The translations under genes were made by a program, and so were the position numbers. Of a stretch of 49,632 nt of DNA, positions 9,178-30,850 are shown piece after piece. The stretch lies in the NCBI GenBank assembly GCA_022709715.1, contig JAKLIH010000005.1, positions 1 to 49,632 on the forward strand. The letters run 5' to 3'. The DNA comes from Patescibacteria group bacterium (GTDB lineage: Bacteria > Patescibacteriota > Minisyncoccia > UBA6257 > JAKLIH01). Positions within the stretch are counted from its first letter, which is position 1; every line of letters starts with the position of its first letter. The notes below the pieces were generated by a model that was not told the DNA's origin, did not search any database, and was given only the letters and a program-made list of their open reading frames with translations.

Positions 9178-10689
9178 CTAATTTTTTCAATCCAAAGTTA
9201 TAGACATGTCCAGTAATGGGAGCAATTCGAAACACTTGTTATATTGAACCATCGTATTGAATGGTTCTTTTATTGTAAATACTAGCTGTTTGTCATTTAG
9301 TTGTAGGTTCTGAAGTAAGAAATTCAAAAGTCGTCTTTTCTCATTCACTTCGGAACTATCAAATATCTCTCTGGCTTTTTTAGCCAAATTAAGCACTAAA
9401 CTCGCAGTTAAATAGAAATCTTCATCGGCGTTTGTATATCTTGATATTTCTTCTTGAATTTCTATTTGTCTTTCTTTTCATTCTTTTAATTTGGCATCAA
9501 AAACATCCTGGGGAACTTTACCATCCGCCAGCAAATTAAAAGAAGCACTTATTCTTTTATCTATTTGGTCATATTCTTTATGCAGATTAGATAAAGCCAA
9601 TTGGTGGAATTGGTCCTTATCTTGATTAGTCTTTTTTAGACATTCGGTTATTTCTTTAATTTGTTCATCCTCAAAACTTATACTATCCAAAAACTCATAT
9701 ATCGATGATAACAAATCTTCCTCTTTAATATACAGAACTTTTTTGTGGACCCTTTTATAATTTGTGCAATGATAATAATGATGTCCCTTAGATGTTTCGG
9801 GTGTTATCATACAGCCACATTCAGCGCAAGTAATTAATCCTCTAAACATATATGGTTTAGCTCCATATATAAATGGTTTCTTATGATATCCCAATAAAAC
9901 ACTTTGGCATCTGCTAAATAAGTCCTTGGAAATTAATGGTTTGTATTTATGAGAATATATTTTATTCTTAATTCTCATTACACCATAGTAAAAAGGATTA
10001 TTTAATATTACATGTATCATGCTTTTGGTTAATGGTTTATTTCTACCGCTATTTCCAACCAATCCTAACTTTTTCATTTCCTCAACAATTTCTAATAGGG
10101 AATAATTGCCAGATGAATACATTTCAAATATTTTTATTATAAAGGGAGATTTCTCTGGGTCAGGAATAATATTTCTTTCTTTATCTTTCATATTTATATA
10201 TCCGATAGGGGATTTACCAATTCATTCTCCAGCTTTAATTTTGTTCTCATAAGCTCTTTTTACATTATCGCTAATAGCATCGGAATAATATTTAGATAAT
10301 CCTAATTGCATTCCAAATTGGAATTTTTGACCAGCTGATATGCTTGAATTAATAACAAGGTTATCGGAAACAAAATGAAGCTCAATTTTATCGGTCATCG
10401 CTAAATCATATAAAGTAGCTACCCGCTTATCAAATACATTACGAGAAAACCTGTCTACCTTATCAAAGCAAACTGCAGTTTTTTCTTTATTCGTTTTTGC
10501 TATCTCTATAATTTTATCAAACTCATTCCGCTTTACTTTATAAGCGCTTTCATCAAAACTAAATACCTCCATAATCTCGAGGTTTTTATATTGGCAATAT
10601 TTTTTTAGACGTTCAATTTGGGCTGGTAAAGAATTACCAGCTTCTTTTTGCTCTTCGGTTGAAACCCGTGCCAAAATTAGTGCTTTCAT
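9178..10689 (-). CDS. Large serine recombinase (site-specific integrase), 503 aa
   Basis: Catalyses DNA integration/excision through a serine nucleophile. The N-terminal resolvase domain starts MKALILARVSTEEQ, with Ser10 as nucleophile and an Arg at 8. A recombinase domain follows ('GE-W-IGKSPIGYINMKDK', where the TGA falls on a family Trp), then a zinc ribbon (CAECGCM...YHC, about residues 290-315) and a C-terminal coiled coil. Three TGAs are read as Trp; the last lies two codons before the TAG at 9178. Its 3' end overlaps the 12-base repeat CAATCCAAAGTT that also closes the element at 20133. Upstream lie a TTGCAA/TATAAT promoter and an interleaved inverted repeat. Confidence 0.9.
9188..9199. 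repeat. Candidate attachment site, left
   Basis: CAATCCAAAGTT, exactly repeated at 20122-20133. It lies within the last codons of the serine recombinase gene. Confidence 0.6.
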
Positions 10690-15291: not shown

Positions 15292-16467
15292 ATGAAAAAG
15301 GCATCAAACAAAAACCTACACAATGCAGGCAAAGCTAAAAAAGATGAATTTTACACCCAACTTATTGATATTGAAAAGGAATTAAAGCATTATAAGGAGC
15401 AATTTCATAATAAGGTGGTATATTGCAATTGTGATGATCCATTTGAAAGCAATTTTTTTAAGTATTTTGCTATTAATTTTAATGCTTTGGGATTAAAAAA
15501 ACTTATCGCGACAAGCTATAAACCATCTCCAATTGCTAATACTCAATTAGGATTGTTTGGGGAAGATAAAATGACTAGTGCGCCAAAGGGTCGTCCAAAC
15601 ATAACGGCTAATAAATTTATTATAAATGAAGTTAGTGATCTTAATAATGATGGTGCATTTGATTTAGACGATATTGCAGAACAGCTCAAGGCGAACAAAA
15701 ACAATGAATGGTCACCTCTAGAAGGGGACGGAGATTTTAGAAGCAAAGAAAGTATTGAATTATTAAAACAATCGGATATTGTAGCTACTAATCCGCCTTT
15801 TTCTTTATTTAGAGAATATGTTGCACAATTAATGGAATATAAAAAGAAATTTTTAATCATTGGCAATATAAATGCGATAACTTATAAGGAAATATTCCCA
15901 TTAATAAGAGATAATAAAATGTGGATAGGTGAAAGCATGAATGGCTCAAATCGTTGATTTGAGATACCAAATTATTATGAAAGTTATCATAAAATTGAAA
16001 ATGGTAAAAAATATGCTTTTGTTCCCGGGGTGATGTGGTTTACAAATCTTGATACATCAAAACGTCACGAAAAAATAATATTATATAAAAAATATATACC
16101 ATCAGAATATCCTCATTATGATAACTATGACGCGATTGATGTTTCTAAAGTAGTTGATATACCAATAGATTGAGGTGGGGTTATGGGTGTGCCAATCTCT
16201 TTTGTAAATAAATATAATCCTGACCAATTTGAGATTGTTGCTCTTGGCAATAGCCGGGATAATTTTACACCAAACAAAACATATATTAATCCCAAAAAAA
16301 TTATGAAAAACGGTGCTATATTAAATGGGAATGCTATAAATTGTGTTTTAGCTATTAATAAGTCAGATAAACCAATTGATACTATACATTACACAAGCGA
16401 TAATAGTAATTATTTATTAGCACCATATGCACGCATTTTAATCAAAAATAAAAAAATAAAAAAATAA
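15292..16467 (+). CDS. EcoRI-type adenine DNA methyltransferase
   Basis: A 391-aa SAM-dependent N6-adenine methylase. The start MKKASNKNLHNAGKAKKDEFYTQ, the VVYCNCDDPFESNFFKYF segment and the catalytic NPPF (residues 167-170) match the EcoRI-methylase family. Trp appears both as TGG (NEW, residue 140; MWIG; VMWF) and TGA ('GSNR-W-FEIPNYY', 'PID-W-GGVMG'). ATG lies ~50 bases after the plus promoter with no Shine-Dalgarno. The nuclease gene starts 2 bases after its TAA. It should protect DNA against that neighbour; the recognition site cannot be read. Confidence 0.85.
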
Positions 16468-21041: not shown

Positions 21042-21821
21042 ATGAAAAAAATAACATCCAGTGGTCAGTATTTTATTAATTGTGTAACCGTCACAGGAGC
21101 GGACGACTATAACGATCCTAACGAAATGGCGGATATTTTTTCTAAGTATCCGTTCGTTGAATTTGGGATATTGTTATCCAGCGATCGTCTAGGTAGTACA
21201 AGATTTCCGTCCATTAACTGGTTGAAAAAATTGTATGATTTTACTGCTTCTGATAGAGTTCATTTAACCGGCCACAATATGATCAATTTATCTGGACATA
21301 TTTGTGGTAAATGGGTTAGAGAACTGTGTGTAGGGTCAGATAAGTTTTTCGAAGAGATGGATCCTGTTTGGAGAATGTTTAGGCGTTTCCAATTAAATTT
21401 TCATGCACAACCGCATGAATTTTTGGAAGACAGGTGCTCAAATGTAATTAAAAAATATTTGCCATCAACACCTATCATTGTCCAAATAGACGGAGTAAAC
21501 GATCACATTCTTAACGATTTGCGATCAAAGGGTGTTAACGCTATTCCATTATTTGATAAATCCAGTGGAGTGGGTTTATTACCAGATCATTGGCCGCTCC
21601 AATCGGTTGGTGTCTATAGCGGTTACGCCGGAGGGCTTTCTCCAGAGAATCTAGCAAGGGAAATCGTAAAAATTTTTAATGCAACTTGTGGACCAATTTG
21701 GATCGACGCCGAGACTCGGCTAAGGTCATCCTTTGGTCATGAAGGCGCCAGAATCGGAGATCGTTTTGATCTTCAGAAAGTTTGTTCATTTTTAGAAATA
21801 GCAAAACAGTGGATTGTCTAA
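21042..21821 (+). CDS. TIM-barrel-like protein (phosphoribosylanthranilate isomerase-like)
   Basis: A 259-aa cytosolic protein. Segments VEFGILLSSDRLGSTRFPS, TPIIVQIDG, VNAIPLFDKSSG and 'YSGYAGGLSPENLAREI' followed by 'GPIWIDAETRLRSS' look like successive strands of a beta/alpha barrel. The GGLSPENL phosphate-loop-like motif recalls PRA isomerase (TrpF). The catalytic Cys/Asp pair of TrpF is not clearly placed, so the reaction is uncertain. All six Trp are TGG, stop TAA, terminator follows. Cassette-style gene. Confidence 0.7.
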   Translation: MKKITSSGQYFINCVTVTGADDYNDPNEMADIFSKYPFVEFGILLSSDRLGSTRFPSINWLKKLYDFTASDRVHLTGHNMINLSGHICGKWVRELCVGSDKFFEEMDPVWRMFRRFQLNFHAQPHEFLEDRCSNVIKKYLPSTPIIVQIDGVNDHILNDLRSKGVNAIPLFDKSSGVGLLPDHWPLQSVGVYSGYAGGLSPENLAREIVKIFNATCGPIWIDAETRLRSSFGHEGARIGDRFDLQKVCSFLEIAKQWIV

Positions 21822-23177: not shown

Positions 23178-23245
23178 TTGACAAACTGTATGAATTATGA
23201 TACTATAATCTCATAAATTTGTTCTTTAGAAAAGGAGAAAAGCAC
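23178..23245 (+). promoter_or_regulatory. Promoter and leader of the HbpS-like gene
   Basis: TTGACA (23178-23183), then TACTAT at 17 bases overlapping TATAAT at 20 bases, then AAATTTGTTCTTT and AAAGGAG. The -35 directly follows the T tail of the preceding terminator. Confidence 0.8.
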
Positions 23246-23750: not shown

Positions 23751-23776
23751 ATTTTTGACATTTGTTTTTTAGTGTG
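23751..23776 (+). repeat. Promoter direct repeat, left of purM
   Basis: ATTTTTGACATTTG followed by TTTTTTAGTGTG, 26 bases in all, identical to 24982-25007. It contains the TTGACA -35 of the purM promoter. Confidence 0.85.
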
Positions 23777-23816: not shown

Positions 23817-24935
23817 ATGCCAGATTATAAAAGTTCAGGAGTTGATTATGATATGTTAGATAAATTTAAAAGGGAAGCTCAACAAGCTGCGCAACGCACA
23901 GCTAACAATGTTCAAAGATTAGGCCTAGCAACAGTAGAAAACATTCGTGGACGTAGTGCTTTCGTTCTTAAAAACAGCTCGACTTTTCCAATTCCATTTA
24001 TAGGTCATGTGGAAGAAGGCCTAGGCACAAAAAATTTAGTGGCTGATCGGATGTCTCAGTTAACTAAAAAATCATATTATTATCAAATCGGGCAAGACAC
24101 AGTCGCCATGATTGTTAATGATATGATTTCTGCCGGAATATTGCCGATATCTGTAGCAATGCATTTGGCCGTTGGTAATTCAAATTGGTTTTCCAAAAAT
24201 CAAGACAATGCCGAATCTTTAATTTCGGGCTGGGAACATGCCTGCAATTTATCCAGGTGTGTTTGGGGTCCAGGCGAAACCGCTACTCTTCGAGATATCA
24301 TTTATCCTGATGCAATTGAGCTGTCCGGTTCAGCCATTGGTATAAATGAACCAAACGGAGCATTGATACTTGAAGAAAACATTCGCGAAGGCGATATGAT
24401 AGTATTTTTAGAAAGTTCTGGTATCCATGCTAATGGATTAACTTTAGTGAGAGACATTGTTAAAAAATTATCAAATGGTTATCTTACTAAATTGCCCAAT
24501 GGCAAGACATTCGGCGAAGAGATTTTAACGCCAACACCCATTTACGTAGGCGTAGTAGAAGATTGTTTCAACAGTGGAATCAAAATTCATTATGCCGAAA
24601 ACATCACTGGTCATGGTTGGCGCAAATTAATGCGTCCGTTGGCTCCGTTCAATTACATTATCGAGCATTTGCCATCGCCTCATATTATTTTTGACTTCCT
24701 TCAAGAACATGGTCAAATCAATGACCTTGAGGCTTATGGCACTTTTAATATGGGGGCCGGATTTGCTTTATATGTGCAGAGTGATGATGTTACAAAAGTA
24801 ATCAGTATCGCCAAAGAAAATTCTATCGAAGCGTATCGAGCTGGTTACGTTGCAAAATCTCGGAATGCTGAAAAAAAAGTTATTATTTGTCCAAAGGACT
24901 TAGAGTATACTCAAGATACTCTAAAAGTTCGTTAG
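23817..24935 (+). CDS. purM: Phosphoribosylformylglycinamidine cyclo-ligase (AIR synthetase)
   Basis: ATP-dependent closure of the imidazole ring in purine synthesis (FGAM to AIR). 372 aa, close to the family length. Seen: start 'YKSSGVDYDMLDKFKREAQ' (family YKDAGVD), GIGQDTVAM-like 'YQIGQDTVAMIVNDMISAGILP' (family G.D.VAMCVND), 'GETATLRDIIYP' (family GGETAEMPG), 'SSGIHANGLTLVR' (family SGLHSNGYSLVR), PTPIYV and 'HYAENITGHGWRKLMR' (family H.TGGG). AAAGGAG start, all four Trp TGG, stop TAG, own terminator. Both sides carry the same 26-base promoter repeat. PurM is sometimes lost in CPR, so import is plausible. Confidence 0.9.
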   Translation: MPDYKSSGVDYDMLDKFKREAQQAAQRTANNVQRLGLATVENIRGRSAFVLKNSSTFPIPFIGHVEEGLGTKNLVADRMSQLTKKSYYYQIGQDTVAMIVNDMISAGILPISVAMHLAVGNSNWFSKNQDNAESLISGWEHACNLSRCVWGPGETATLRDIIYPDAIELSGSAIGINEPNGALILEENIREGDMIVFLESSGIHANGLTLVRDIVKKLSNGYLTKLPNGKTFGEEILTPTPIYVGVVEDCFNSGIKIHYAENITGHGWRKLMRPLAPFNYIIEHLPSPHIIFDFLQEHGQINDLEAYGTFNMGAGFALYVQSDDVTKVISIAKENSIEAYRAGYVAKSRNAEKKVIICPKDLEYTQDTLKVR

Positions 24936-24942
24936 GACAGAT

Positions 24943-24981
24943 GAGATTCGTTATTATTAATAGTAGCGAATCTCTTTTTTT
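24943..24981 (+). terminator. Terminator of purM
   Basis: GAGATTCG / CGAATCTC stem with an inner ATTATTAATAGT loop and a T run leading to the second promoter repeat. Confidence 0.8.
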
Positions 24982-25014
24982 ATTTTTGACATTTGTTTTT
25001 TAGTGTGGTACACT
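24982..25014 (+). promoter_or_regulatory. Promoter direct repeat, right of purM
   Basis: Exact copy of 23751-23776. TTGACA is followed 17 bases on by TACACT. It now drives the efflux operon at 25051. Confidence 0.75.
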
Positions 25015-25050: not shown

Positions 25051-26679
25051 ATGCTATCAAAAATCACAAAAGCATTGAAAAAATGATTAAAATCACCGTG
25101 AAATACTACTAAAAAATTATTTAAAAACAAGCGTTTTGTTTTAATATTTATTATCGCTTTGGTTTTATTATTGATTATTATTTCATCAAGTTTTAAGAAA
25201 AAATCAATCGAAACAGTAACTATTGAAAAGGGGAGCGTTATCCAAGAAGTAAGTTTAACTGGTACCGTAAAACCTACTAGAAATATTGATTATGCTTTTG
25301 ACCGTTCTGGCAGAGTATCAAAAATTTATGTTAAAACTGGCGATCTTGTAAAACAAGGACAAATTTTAATGAGTTTGGATAATGGTGATGTTTATGCTCA
25401 ATACAAGCAAGCCCAATCAGCTTTAACCATTCAACAAATTAAATTAAATGATTATTACAATGGTGCGCGTCCGGAAGATTTGCAAATTGCTCAAAATCAA
25501 TATAACGATGCCAACCAAAAATTAGATGTTGCTTACAAAAATATGTATAGCTCATTATTTTCTGATTACAATACCGTTAATAGTTTAATTAGAAATAATT
25601 TATTATCAGTTTTTTCCTACATGGGTGATTGAGAGGCAACTAGTCCAGTTTATAATATTTCCTTCAAAACTTGTTATGCTGTAAATAGTACCAATTCTCC
25701 TTTAATTTTACGTAAAGAATACGAAAACACTTTAAACCAATGAAAACTTGAACTCGATACTTTAACCAACAACCATGCCAGCATTTATCTTCAAGCTTCA
25801 AAAAATAAAACCTATTTAGACGATGCTTATTATTTGCTTAATAGCATCAGCAATGTCATTGATCCAGTTAATTGTAATATTTATGGTGGGACCGACAAGA
25901 CTACCATTGACGGTTTGCGTTCAACTATTGATTCGGTAAAAACAAGTATTGAAACCACTCGCGCCTCTTTGCTTTCCGGCAAGAGTTCACTTGATACTTT
26001 AGATTTAGCTTTTAACAATGCTTCACAAAATCTAGAAACCAAAAAACATCCATATACAAATGAAGATATTGATACTCAAAAAGCTATCGTTGATCAAGCC
26101 AAAGCTAATGTTGATAATTATTTATCTCTTTATAATAAAACTTTAATTTACGCTCCATTTGATAGTAAAGTCACCAAAATTGTTCCCGAAGTTGGTAACA
26201 TTATCAATGCTAACTCAACCGTTATTTCTTTAATTGGTGGCGATACTTATCAAATTGAAACCTATGTGGCCGAATCGGATATTGCTAAAATAAAAATTAA
26301 TAATTCGGCTAAAGTTACTCTGGATGCTTATTCAAGTGATATTATTTTTGCGGCCAAAGTTTTACAAATCGATTTATCGGCCACTGATATTGAAGGTGTT
26401 GCTAGCTATAAAACAATTCTTAAATTCGATAAAGAAGATCAACGCATTATGCCCGGTATGACTGCTAATATTGATATTGTATCCAACAAAAAAGAAAATG
26501 TTATTTATGTTCCTAGCCGTGCTATTATTACTAAAAATGGCAAAAAATTTGTAAAATTAATTATTGATAATAAAAATAAAGTTCAAGAGACCAATGTTGT
26601 TGCTGGCATTCGCGGTAGCGATGGCCGCACTGAAATTATTTCTGGTCTACAAGTTGGCGATAAAATTATAATGAATTAA
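25051..26679 (+). CDS. MacA/HlyD-type periplasmic adaptor protein, 542 aa
   Basis: Adaptor of an ABC efflux system. An N-terminal cytoplasmic tail with two TGA-Trp codons ('LKK-W-LKSP-W-N') precedes one TM (residues 31-48, VLIFIIALVLLLIIISS). A lipoyl/barrel-sandwich half follows (GRVSKIYVKTGDLVKQGQIL), then a long coiled-coil hairpin (about 110-350), the second lipoyl half (LIYAPFDSKVTKIVPEVGNI) and a beta-barrel (VTLDAYSSDIIFAAKVLQID). Two more TGAs are Trp. It lies one base before the ATPase gene, so an operon. Substrate unknown (peptide, lipid or drug export). Confidence 0.85.
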
Positions 26680-28970: not shown

Positions 28971-28999
28971 ACCACCTGGCTTTAGCCAGGTGGTTTTTT
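28971..28999 (+). terminator. Terminator fused to the next promoter (copy 1)
   Basis: ACCACCTGGC / GCCAGGTGGT stem, T tail merging into TTGACA at 28998. The 50 bases 28971-29020 recur with one mismatch at 30405-30454. Confidence 0.9.
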
Positions 29000-29089
29000 G
29001 ACAATCAAATTGAATTGTGATACTATAATTCTATAAATTTGTTCTTAAAAAATTAAAAGTCGACGGACTTTAAACGTATAGGAGACATA
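28998..29089 (+). promoter_or_regulatory. Promoter and leader of purC-purE
   Basis: TTGACA (28998-29003), TACTAT at 17 bases overlapping TATAAT (29024-29029), AAATTTGTTCTT leader, then a ~45-base stretch with GTCGACGGAC and TATAGGAGACATA before ATG. Confidence 0.75.
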
Positions 29090-30385
29090 ATGGGAGATAT
29101 AATTCAAAAAGGTGTTTTATTAACAGAAGGTAAGACGAAGAAGATTTTTGAGGTAATCAATTATCCTAATTCAGTTATCATCCAATCAAAAGATGATATC
29201 ACGGCTGGCGATGGTGCTAAGCATGACATTATTGATGGCAAAGCCATCCTTGCCAATGAAGTTACCTGTAATGTTTTCCGCCTGCTTAAAAAATGCTATA
29301 TTCCAATTGCTTTTCAAAAGCAACTTAGCGACACAGAGTTTGTTTCTAAGCGCTGTAACATGGTACCATGGGAAGTGGTCATTCGCAGAAAAGCTCTTGG
29401 ATCCTATCTTAAAAGGAATCCTCATTTTAGCAAGGGTCAAATTTTTCCGAAGCTTATTTTCGAATTGTTTCTTAAAACGTCCGGGAAAAAATGGAAAGGG
29501 AAAGATATTCCATGTGACGATCCTTTTGCTATCATATCTCATGATGGCAATCATATGGAATTGTTTTTACCAGATCAATCACTCAGCCAACAATCATCGT
29601 TTTTAGTCTTAGATGATTTTCCATTGAAAGATCAGACGAAGGTGGTTGATGCAATTAGAAACATAGCCATGGAGGTTTTTCTGATTTTGGAAGAAGCTTG
29701 GCGACTCCAGGGAAGAGAACTTGTTGATCTTAAGTTGGAGTTTGGTTTTGATGAGGATAATCAGCTTTTATTAGCTGATGTCATTGACAATGATTCATGG
29801 CGAGTACTTCACAATGGTCAAAATATTGATAAGCAACTCTATCGTGATGGAGCTGACCTCAATGAAGTTACTGCCAAATATCAAGAGGTAGCAGAACTTA
29901 CTGGTCGCTTTGAAATACCGCGCCAGCAAATTATTTTGTGGCGTGCATCCCCTAAAGACGATTTGCTAGATTTTTCATCAGTTATTTACGAAATTAATGC
30001 TGGCAATTGTGTTTTTCAGACTACAGTCGTGACTTCATCTCTTCATAAAACACCTGTCCAGGCAATAGATGAATTGATAAAAAAAATTCAGGAAGTGCCT
30101 GATTCAGTGGTCATTGCTTATTGTGGCATGAGCAATGGCGCCGGACCAACATTGTCAGCTCATTGCACGGTACCAGTAATTACCGTGCCAGCGAGTTGGA
30201 AAGATTTTCATGAAGACGTTTGGTCATCACTTCGAACTCCGAGCGATGTATCAGTTTCAACTGTTCTTAATCCAAAAAATGCAGTGTTGCATGCATTGCA
30301 AATCCTGGCCATGCGAAACCCATGGCTGTATGCTATACTGCGCCAAAAGCAAGAGGAACGTTTGTGCAATTTTCTTATCTTCTAG
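29090..30385 (+). CDS. purCE: Bifunctional SAICAR synthetase / class II-like AIR carboxylase (PAICS-type fusion)
   Basis: A 431-aa fusion for two successive purine steps. The N-terminal SAICAR synthetase domain (residues 1-~270) shows LLTEGKTKKIFEV, DDITAGDGAKHD, VIRRKALGSYLKRNP, 'LVDLKLEFGFDED' and LADVIDNDSWRV, followed by KQLYRD. The C-terminal PurE domain (~283-431) has TSSLHKTP, 'CGMSNGAGPTLSAHC', PVITVPASW and DVWSSLRTPSDVSVSTVLNP, which resembles animal PAICS (SNGLGP, DVWSSLR) more than bacterial class I PurE. The N-terminal PurE strand is diverged. Eight Trp, all TGG. Stop TAG. Bracketed by 50-base direct repeats. Confidence 0.88.
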   Translation: MGDIIQKGVLLTEGKTKKIFEVINYPNSVIIQSKDDITAGDGAKHDIIDGKAILANEVTCNVFRLLKKCYIPIAFQKQLSDTEFVSKRCNMVPWEVVIRRKALGSYLKRNPHFSKGQIFPKLIFELFLKTSGKKWKGKDIPCDDPFAIISHDGNHMELFLPDQSLSQQSSFLVLDDFPLKDQTKVVDAIRNIAMEVFLILEEAWRLQGRELVDLKLEFGFDEDNQLLLADVIDNDSWRVLHNGQNIDKQLYRDGADLNEVTAKYQEVAELTGRFEIPRQQIILWRASPKDDLLDFSSVIYEINAGNCVFQTTVVTSSLHKTPVQAIDELIKKIQEVPDSVVIAYCGMSNGAGPTLSAHCTVPVITVPASWKDFHEDVWSSLRTPSDVSVSTVLNPKNAVLHALQILAMRNPWLYAILRQKQEERLCNFLIF

Positions 30386-30404
30386 TTTTTGCTAGCAAGA
30401 ACCC

Positions 30405-30454
30405 ACCACCTGGCTTTAGCCAGGTGGTTTTTTGACATTCAAATTGAATTGTGA
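30405..30454 (+). repeat. Terminator-promoter repeat (copy 2)
   Basis: 49 of 50 bases match 28971-29020: hairpin ACCACCTGGC/GCCAGGTGGT, T tail and TTGACA (30432-30437). It ends purC-purE transcription and starts the next gene. Confidence 0.9.
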
Positions 30455-30496
30455 TGGCATAATCATAGAAATTTGTTTTTTAAGGAGGTATTTATT

Positions 30497-30850
30497 ATGG
30501 ATATTTTGCCCTTTAAATTATTTAGAAAGAAACGTTATGTAAAAAAGATTGATGATAAAGAACCTTCACTGGTTATAGAAGGTCAATTATCTAGATTCAA
30601 AGTCAAGGAGGGTTACGTTTTGGGTATTATTCAGGATTGCCATGGGAATATCGTTTATACAAACGATGTAGTGACTCTACCTGGAGATCAGTATGTTTAT
30701 CAATTCGCATCCGATATATTAATAACCGACATTGAAGAAGGCCATGGTTATCTGAGGGCAATCGGAGAAAGTACTGGTGGTAACGGTTCATTGGAAAACT
30801 TTCATGGTAAATGCGAAATTATTCGCCAATCGAAATATCCAGGTTATTGA
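30497..30850 (+). CDS. Hypothetical 117-aa beta-rich protein with TGA stop
   Basis: Start chosen at ATG 30497, after AAGGAGGTATTTATT; the frame opens upstream but the Shine-Dalgarno decides. No membrane segment. Segments such as GYVLGIIQDCHGNIVYTND and QYVYQFASDILITDIEEG suggest a small beta-barrel. No Trp. Stop TGA (30848-30850) 12 bases before a terminator; UGA=Trp would extend through the hairpin by about 25 codons. No family recognised. Confidence 0.7.
   Translation: MDILPFKLFRKKRYVKKIDDKEPSLVIEGQLSRFKVKEGYVLGIIQDCHGNIVYTNDVVTLPGDQYVYQFASDILITDIEEGHGYLRAIGESTGGNGSLENFHGKCEIIRQSKYPGY

Follow-up and report, generated by a model that had tools for sequence, protein, structure and literature searches.

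Putative mobile promoters are near-identical promoter regions that stand before unrelated genes within one genome. The purC-purE locus of the Patescibacterium analysed here resembles them in its near-identical promoter regions, but there are only two copies and these bracket a foreign gene. Phage morons, the independently transcribed accessory genes of prophages (PMC6469090), are also single foreign genes of deviating composition, located between resident genes and equipped with their own promoter and terminator. The units described here, however, lie in the chromosome of a bacterium, and no phage genes were recognised next to them. They have direct promoter repeats and use the standard code and Shine-Dalgarno (SD) sequences, neither of which the carrier itself uses. 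Phage auxiliary metabolic genes, such as purM and purC of cyanophages, are likewise isolated purine steps in an agent that lacks the rest of the pathway, whereas here they are carried by a cellular symbiont and PurC is fused to PurE; the cyanophage proteins are about 27–33% identical to those found here. Integrative elements that target tRNA genes or the 5' ends of genes, for example the dusA integrase family (PMC4482086), bring in cargo and rebuild the target by means of direct repeats, which resembles the arrangement here, but no common core was found among the bracket repeats compared and no integrase beside the purC-purE or purM units. Standard-code phages have been predicted for recoded CPR bacteria and mostly rely on stops other than TGA (PMC10746230). 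They also tie standard-code genes to a recoded CPR lineage, but as separate genomes, in contrast to the chromosomal genes with conserved TGA stops reported here.

The purC-purE gene and its bracketing repeat

The purC-purE gene was identified in a window of 49,632 nucleotides, which is the whole stretch of DNA analysed. The elements of the locus, all on the forward strand, are as follows.

28971-29020, + strand: repeat copy 1, made up of the hairpin of the terminator (28971-28994), its T tail and, from the promoter, TTGACA −35 and TGTGAT
28998-29026, + strand: predicted extended −10 promoter of purC-purE (TTGACA, 17 nt, TG.TACTAT)
29039-29050, + strand: boxA-like leader TTGTTCTTAAAA with a putative function; a small hairpin (AAAGTC-GACG-GACTTT) comes next
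29080-29084, + strand: Shine-Dalgarno sequence AGGAG of purC-purE, assigned from the sequence
29090-30385, + strand: purC-purE fusion, 431 aa, SAICAR synthetase and AIR carboxylase domains, 8 TGG and 0 TGA codons, 39.2% GC
30405-30454, + strand: repeat copy 2, with the purC-purE terminator, T tail, TTGACA −35 and TGTGAT, followed by a degenerate −10 (TGGCAT)
30482-30488, + strand: Shine-Dalgarno sequence AAGGAGG of the downstream ORF, assigned from the sequence
30497-30850, + strand: 117-aa ORF with a standard-code TGA stop right before a hairpin, the next unit of the purC-purE kind and without a Pfam or NCBIfam match

Pairwise comparison within the window reproduces the 49 of 50 identical bases between the two copies that the initial annotation had reported; about 1e-16 such 50-mer pairs are expected by chance. 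When the comparison is extended, the copies are 89% alike over 79 bases. Identity outside the block is 5/20 for the preceding bases and 21/29 for the next bases, so that the edge of the block is sharp on the left and fades inside the leader. Hairpin folding gives −23 kcal/mol (z −6.3) for copy 1 and −19.5 kcal/mol (z −5.5) for copy 2. The block had been described as a complete hairpin terminator with its T tail and the following TTGACA promoter. It does contain the hairpin terminator, T tail, TTGACA −35 and TGTGAT, but the promoter is incomplete, as the −10 hexamer falls just outside the 50 bases and reads TACTAT at 29021-29026 (copy 1) and TGGCAT in copy 2, because of which the predicted downstream promoter is possibly or even probably weak. 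A search of the 900 kb genome returned exactly two full copies, and the block is therefore not a genome-wide repeat. The explanation that it is one member of a genome-wide hairpin family, which would have undone the initial reading, is ruled out by this copy number of two, the other hairpins of the genome being multi-copy.

The gene between the copies encodes a PurC-PurE fusion, as had been read initially, and the protein is PAICS-like. The best solved relatives of the protein are PAICS and ADE2 (E-values near 1e-60, with conserved motifs aligned), in which SAICAR synthetase is fused to AIR carboxylase in the same domain order. In contrast to these, the protein found here is bacterial, belongs to a single-gene unit and is part of a partial pathway, its catalysis being predicted from the sequence. 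The GC content of purC-purE is 39.2% against 27–32% in its neighbours and 30% for the carrier's own genes, and it has a predicted promoter and a predicted terminator of its own. The neighbouring genes are hlyD-ABC-macB, mscL and uvrD-like genes, and the unit does not lie inside a phage genome.

Neither purC-purE nor purM has an orthologue in the genus relatives, including the sister species G002, and a match to the fusion protein is present in 7 of the 244 genomes of the order. Its nearest relatives belong to other families (54% identity in G084 and 51% in G190). In G190, the purC-purE relative has 61% GC and the purM relative (48% identity) 57% GC in a genome and neighbourhood of about 40%; by inspection, both are also single-gene units. 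Named relatives in the genome_contigs search were limited to a single weak archaeal match. A remnant of a PurE C-terminus (78% identity over 36 residues) is present right behind purB in the distant Patescibacterium G338 (L093 3650-3785). In the relatives, no orthologue of the flanking hlyD-ABC-macB operon occupies that position; since macB is not syntenic there, no empty-site allele for purC-purE was found. Upstream of mscL, where the 117-aa ORF is located here, G002 contains a different unit of the same format. A viral origin was considered and rejected: the viral contigs scanned contained no relatives of purC-purE, purM or the two neighbouring ORFs, and the promoter-boxA pattern gave just chance-like matches in coding sequence there.

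A standard-code, SD-led class in a recoded genome

The carrier genome is a draft of 900 kb in 107 contigs, 98.8% complete, of which 700 kb and later 816 kb were read; its size and gene content point to a Patescibacterium. TGA encodes tryptophan in this genome, as interrupted reading frames close under that code. Genes for tRNA-Trp(UCA) and tRNA-Trp(CCA) are located on its contig C20 (18597-18671 and 31289-31361). G002 has the same codon pattern, and TGA is read as tryptophan in this genus and apparently in G003, but not in G006, a member of the same order with the standard code. The sampled 816 kb contain a single 16S rRNA gene (L155 18463-19993, contig C14). Its rRNA tail after helix 45 is GAAACAUUUCUUUUA in place of a CCUCC-bearing tail, so that there is no anti-SD; the gene reads GAAACATTTCTTTTA past helix 45, whose end was placed by hand, without CCTCC. 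The 16S tails of G003 and G006 are similar. Loss of the anti-SD jointly with loss of SD sequences is known from other bacteria (PMC6107228). The sole full-length release factor detected by motif search in the 816 kb carries the PVT motif of RF1, and the same kind of search found no RF2 in this 91% of the genome.

Within the same 816 kb we find 31 single-gene units (class 2), defined by promoter plus SD, which have their own promoter, a strong SD, about 37–38% GC and TGG for tryptophan. Both purC-purE and purM belong to this class, and two further members in the window are listed below.

21042-21821, + strand: 259-aa class 2 ORF with a sub-threshold phosphoribosylanthranilate-isomerase-like match, 6 TGG and 0 TGA codons
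23246-23701, + strand: 151-aa class 2 unit with a promoter at 23178, boxA-like leader and SD

On contig C42 (42756-43472), pyrF (OMP decarboxylase) is organised as a promoter-SD unit of this kind, and a 261-aa ORF lies behind it. Composition and leader are common to functionally unrelated genes of the class. A separate foreign set of 24 genes was defined by composition alone and includes a groEL-like gene that is probably native and misclassified; against 401 native genes, it shows a strict SD in 18/24 versus 20/401, an extended −10 promoter in 12/24 versus 27/401 and a boxA-like leader in 7/24 versus 7/401. Genome-wide, the boxA-like motif is not enriched (16 occurrences with 11 expected), and its enrichment is confined to the region before class 2 genes.

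Codon usage separates the class. Class 2 contains 61 TGG and 1 internal TGA codon, in a 31-gene count that generously scores the first TGA as a stop if it falls among the final 75 codons, whereas the carrier's own (class 1) genes contain 607 TGG and 1424 TGA codons. This near-exclusive TGG is found despite the fact that only 29% of the comparable A/G two-fold codons of class 2 end in G. By a stricter count, 9 of 29 class 2 genes have their sole TGA among the final 31 codons, mostly just before a terminator and stop-like, while a sole TGA is found in the final 15% of the gene in 15% of class 1 cases. That no class 1 gene ended in TGA in the codon count is a consequence of its construction and was left out as evidence. 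The class 2 genes resemble genes written for other machinery because they use the standard code and SD sequences, neither of which is used by the carrier's own genes. These signals fit the translation of another cell rather than that of the carrier, expression in such a host being itself a prediction. The presence of a standard-code, SD-led class in a genome that reads TGA as tryptophan and has no anti-SD is more surprising than the bracketing of purine genes.

The class is also present in the sister species. For six class 2 genes on contig C64, reciprocal best hits were found in G002, where their order is conserved amid ordinary orthologues such as hisS (named from sequence motifs). Identity between the two species is 39–55% for the class 2 pairs and 70–97% for the ordinary neighbours. 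The SD is kept in 6/6 class 2 pairs and the TGA stop in both species for three pairs, one of which ends in the aligned motif TDSSA(S/T)-TGA. At aligned tryptophan positions of ordinary genes, 106 of 388 codons differ between the two species, which reveals wide turnover, while class 2 keeps TGG at conserved tryptophans. Preservation of SD, TGG and TGA stops amid this turnover is not a pattern that simple decay after import would yield. The promoter-plus-SD class is absent from G006, and G003, of the same family, has only two promoter-plus-SD genes, neither of class 2 composition. The distribution in these sequences indicates that class 2 is old in the genus.

Direct repeats, insertion sites and the purM unit

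Two-copy direct repeats bracket 4 of the 24 foreign and 4 of the 401 native genes (p 0.0005), in small counts for which two-copy status was judged by eye from the repeat list. Two further brackets enclose genes of the same class, at 2297-2743 and on contig C64 at 15449-15910; the first is formed by the following repeat.

2265-2301, + strand: 37-base leader repeat with a second copy at 2844-2880, bracketing the 148-aa gene at 2297-2743

Brackets of direct repeats are not confined to such genes, being also present at tRNA genes and other promoters. At tRNA-Arg(tcg), a second copy of the promoter and the first tRNA bases lies 785 bases upstream, with a foreign ORF enclosed. G002 has a single tRNA-Arg(tcg) copy, both flanks align to that one site, and the bracket is an insertion with duplication. 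Short duplications also mark tRNA-Glu, where G002 has a single copy, tRNA-Lys, where G002 has the duplication as well, and the tRNA-Leu genes. The bracket repeats differ in length (26 to about 140 bases) and in sequence, and thus no common recombinase site is seen.

Several other repeats were observed in the genome. The 5' part of tRNA-Lys is duplicated about 180 bases upstream in both species (C42 45836-46092 and L142 8497-8728) around a conserved hairpin-rich insert, which might be a non-coding RNA or an old insertion. The 5' ends of tRNA-Leu genes are duplicated 220–330 bases upstream, one of them twice (C1 141507, C86 24041/24264). At tRNA-Glu, the 3' end is duplicated around a short insert that is absent in G002 (C1 57173-57197 and 57361-57385), resembling an integrase scar. 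On C1 (64730-66800), a hairpin-leader repeat of up to about 140 bases occurs three times and brackets two neighbouring foreign genes. A palindromic hairpin, AATCCCAACGGTACC(A/T)GGTACCGTTGGGATT, is seen at C64 5971-18670 with many copies dispersed in the genome. The window itself contains a large serine recombinase (9178-10689) near tRNA-Asn (2075-2147), and its first 25 kb may be an island.

The purM gene lies 4 kb upstream of purC-purE and is organised as follows.

23751-23776, + strand: purM repeat copy 1, comprising the −35 of the purM promoter and its spacer
23817-24935, + strand: purM, 372 aa, 4 TGG and 0 TGA codons, 38.5% GC, SD-led
24943-24974, + strand: purM terminator, predicted by hairpin folding
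24982-25007, + strand: purM repeat copy 2, at the promoter before a native hlyD-like gene (25051-26679, 4 TGA and 0 TGG codons)

The initial annotation took purM for the same arrangement with another sequence. The gene is indeed bracketed by a different repeat, but this comprises just 26 bases, covering only the −35 and spacer, and the two terminators there differ in sequence. The initial description of each of the two purine genes as part of a repeat-bracketed unit of its own is borne out. PurM scores 194 bits against TIGR00878, below the curated cut-off of 236, with both AIRS domains above the Pfam cut-offs, which suggests a divergent PurM-like protein. The search for purine families covered AIRS_C, AICARFT, Lyase_1 and GARS_A. 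It detected no AIRS_C protein other than PurM in the 98.8% complete genome, hence no purL, and no AICARFT (purH), Lyase_1 (purB) or GARS_A (purD), so that only PurM, PurE and PurC represent the pathway among the families searched. These three catalyse consecutive steps from FGAM to SAICAR. The initial annotation had proposed a check for other purine steps in the same format; purL, purD, purB and purH are absent, while pyrF and many uncharacterised genes are carried in this format, and the bracketed unit is not a purine-specific system.

Origin and possible role of the units

That the units are moron-like foreign expression units is well supported. The most probable explanation of purC-purE, in our view, is that it is such a unit from a standard-code, SD-using source, whose insertion by an existing promoter duplicated the terminator-promoter segment. 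A unit would consist of a terminator, an extended −10 promoter, often a boxA-like leader, an SD, one gene and a terminator, and such units would have entered the lineage of the Patescibacterium from standard-code, SD-using sources. Insertion next to a resident promoter would duplicate the terminator-promoter segment, leaving the new gene and the gene behind it with one terminator-promoter each. The purC-purE repeat is likely the mark of such an insertion; it may have had the same origin, with an incoming unit most likely recombining via homology to the promoter segment. Promoter duplication followed by a separate, later gene capture would leave the same pattern as one insertion. PurM, PurE and PurC might act on another cell's metabolites as three linked steps leading from FGAM to SAICAR, because the neighbouring steps are missing.

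Copying of the terminator-promoter block before a gene already present, with no insertion of the gene, would fit the 98% likeness of the block against 72% for the leaders behind it, and similar promoter-leader sequences do precede unrelated genes. This appears improbable, since the bracketed gene is foreign and the genus relatives lack it, insertion is what is seen at tRNA-Arg, and the block has two copies only. Still less credence is due to the idea that unrelated sequences were joined at the 50-base repeat during assembly, which we regard as very improbable: the genome is a draft in 107 contigs, but purC-purE has the typical class 2 leader of the genome with the repeat on both sides, several independent brackets have different sequences, and class 1 and class 2 genes are mixed in the same contig order in two species. 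Plain recent horizontal transfer, in which unrelated foreign genes are as yet unadapted and their signals have no special meaning, agrees with the patchy presence of purC-purE in the order and its foreign composition, and gene transfer into Patescibacteria is common (PMC12455944). We consider it unlikely, because six class members are syntenic in two species and keep SD, TGG and TGA stops despite turnover of ordinary tryptophan codons, and because functionally unrelated genes share the same composition and leader. For purM and purC-purE themselves, recent transfer may still hold.

It is also conceivable, though doubtful, that the class 2 units are read in the bacterial host of a presumed episymbiont, a host with anti-SD, RF2 and the standard code, and that purM and purC-purE push its purine pathway. 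Tentatively, the genus of recoded, anti-SD-less Patescibacteria would then keep class 2, purM and purC-purE included, by selection for expression in the host cell and not in itself. Expression there would explain the SD, the code and the TGA stops together. The carrier's own 16S tail without CCUCC, its tRNA-Trp(UCA) and its sole, RF1-like release factor are consistent with this, as are the syntenic G002 orthologues that retain SD (six pairs), TGA stop (three) and TGG while ordinary tryptophan codons turned over. The nucleotide genes purM, purC-purE and pyrF are among class 2, and the occurrence of purM and purC in cyanophages provides a parallel. However, such expression requires a route for DNA or RNA to the host, RF2 or a second 16S gene could sit in the 9% of the genome beyond the 91% read, and readthrough at a terminal TGA could be harmless. 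Furthermore, the conservation of signals comes from other class members, as purM and purC-purE have no G002 orthologue. The main alternatives to reading in a host are that the genes have been replaced time and again from a standard-code source, or that an RF2 and a second 16S gene went undetected.

Returning to insertion from a standard-code source, if the class has merely been imported, streamlined symbionts would gain genes one expression unit at a time, with the neighbours left intact. Should the class instead be expressed in another cell, it would provide direct evidence, at the sequence level, of a symbiont carrying genes for its host. Code and ribosome-binding signals would then be a built-in marker of which genes serve whom, and host manipulation by uncultured Patescibacteria would become testable from sequence and proteomics.
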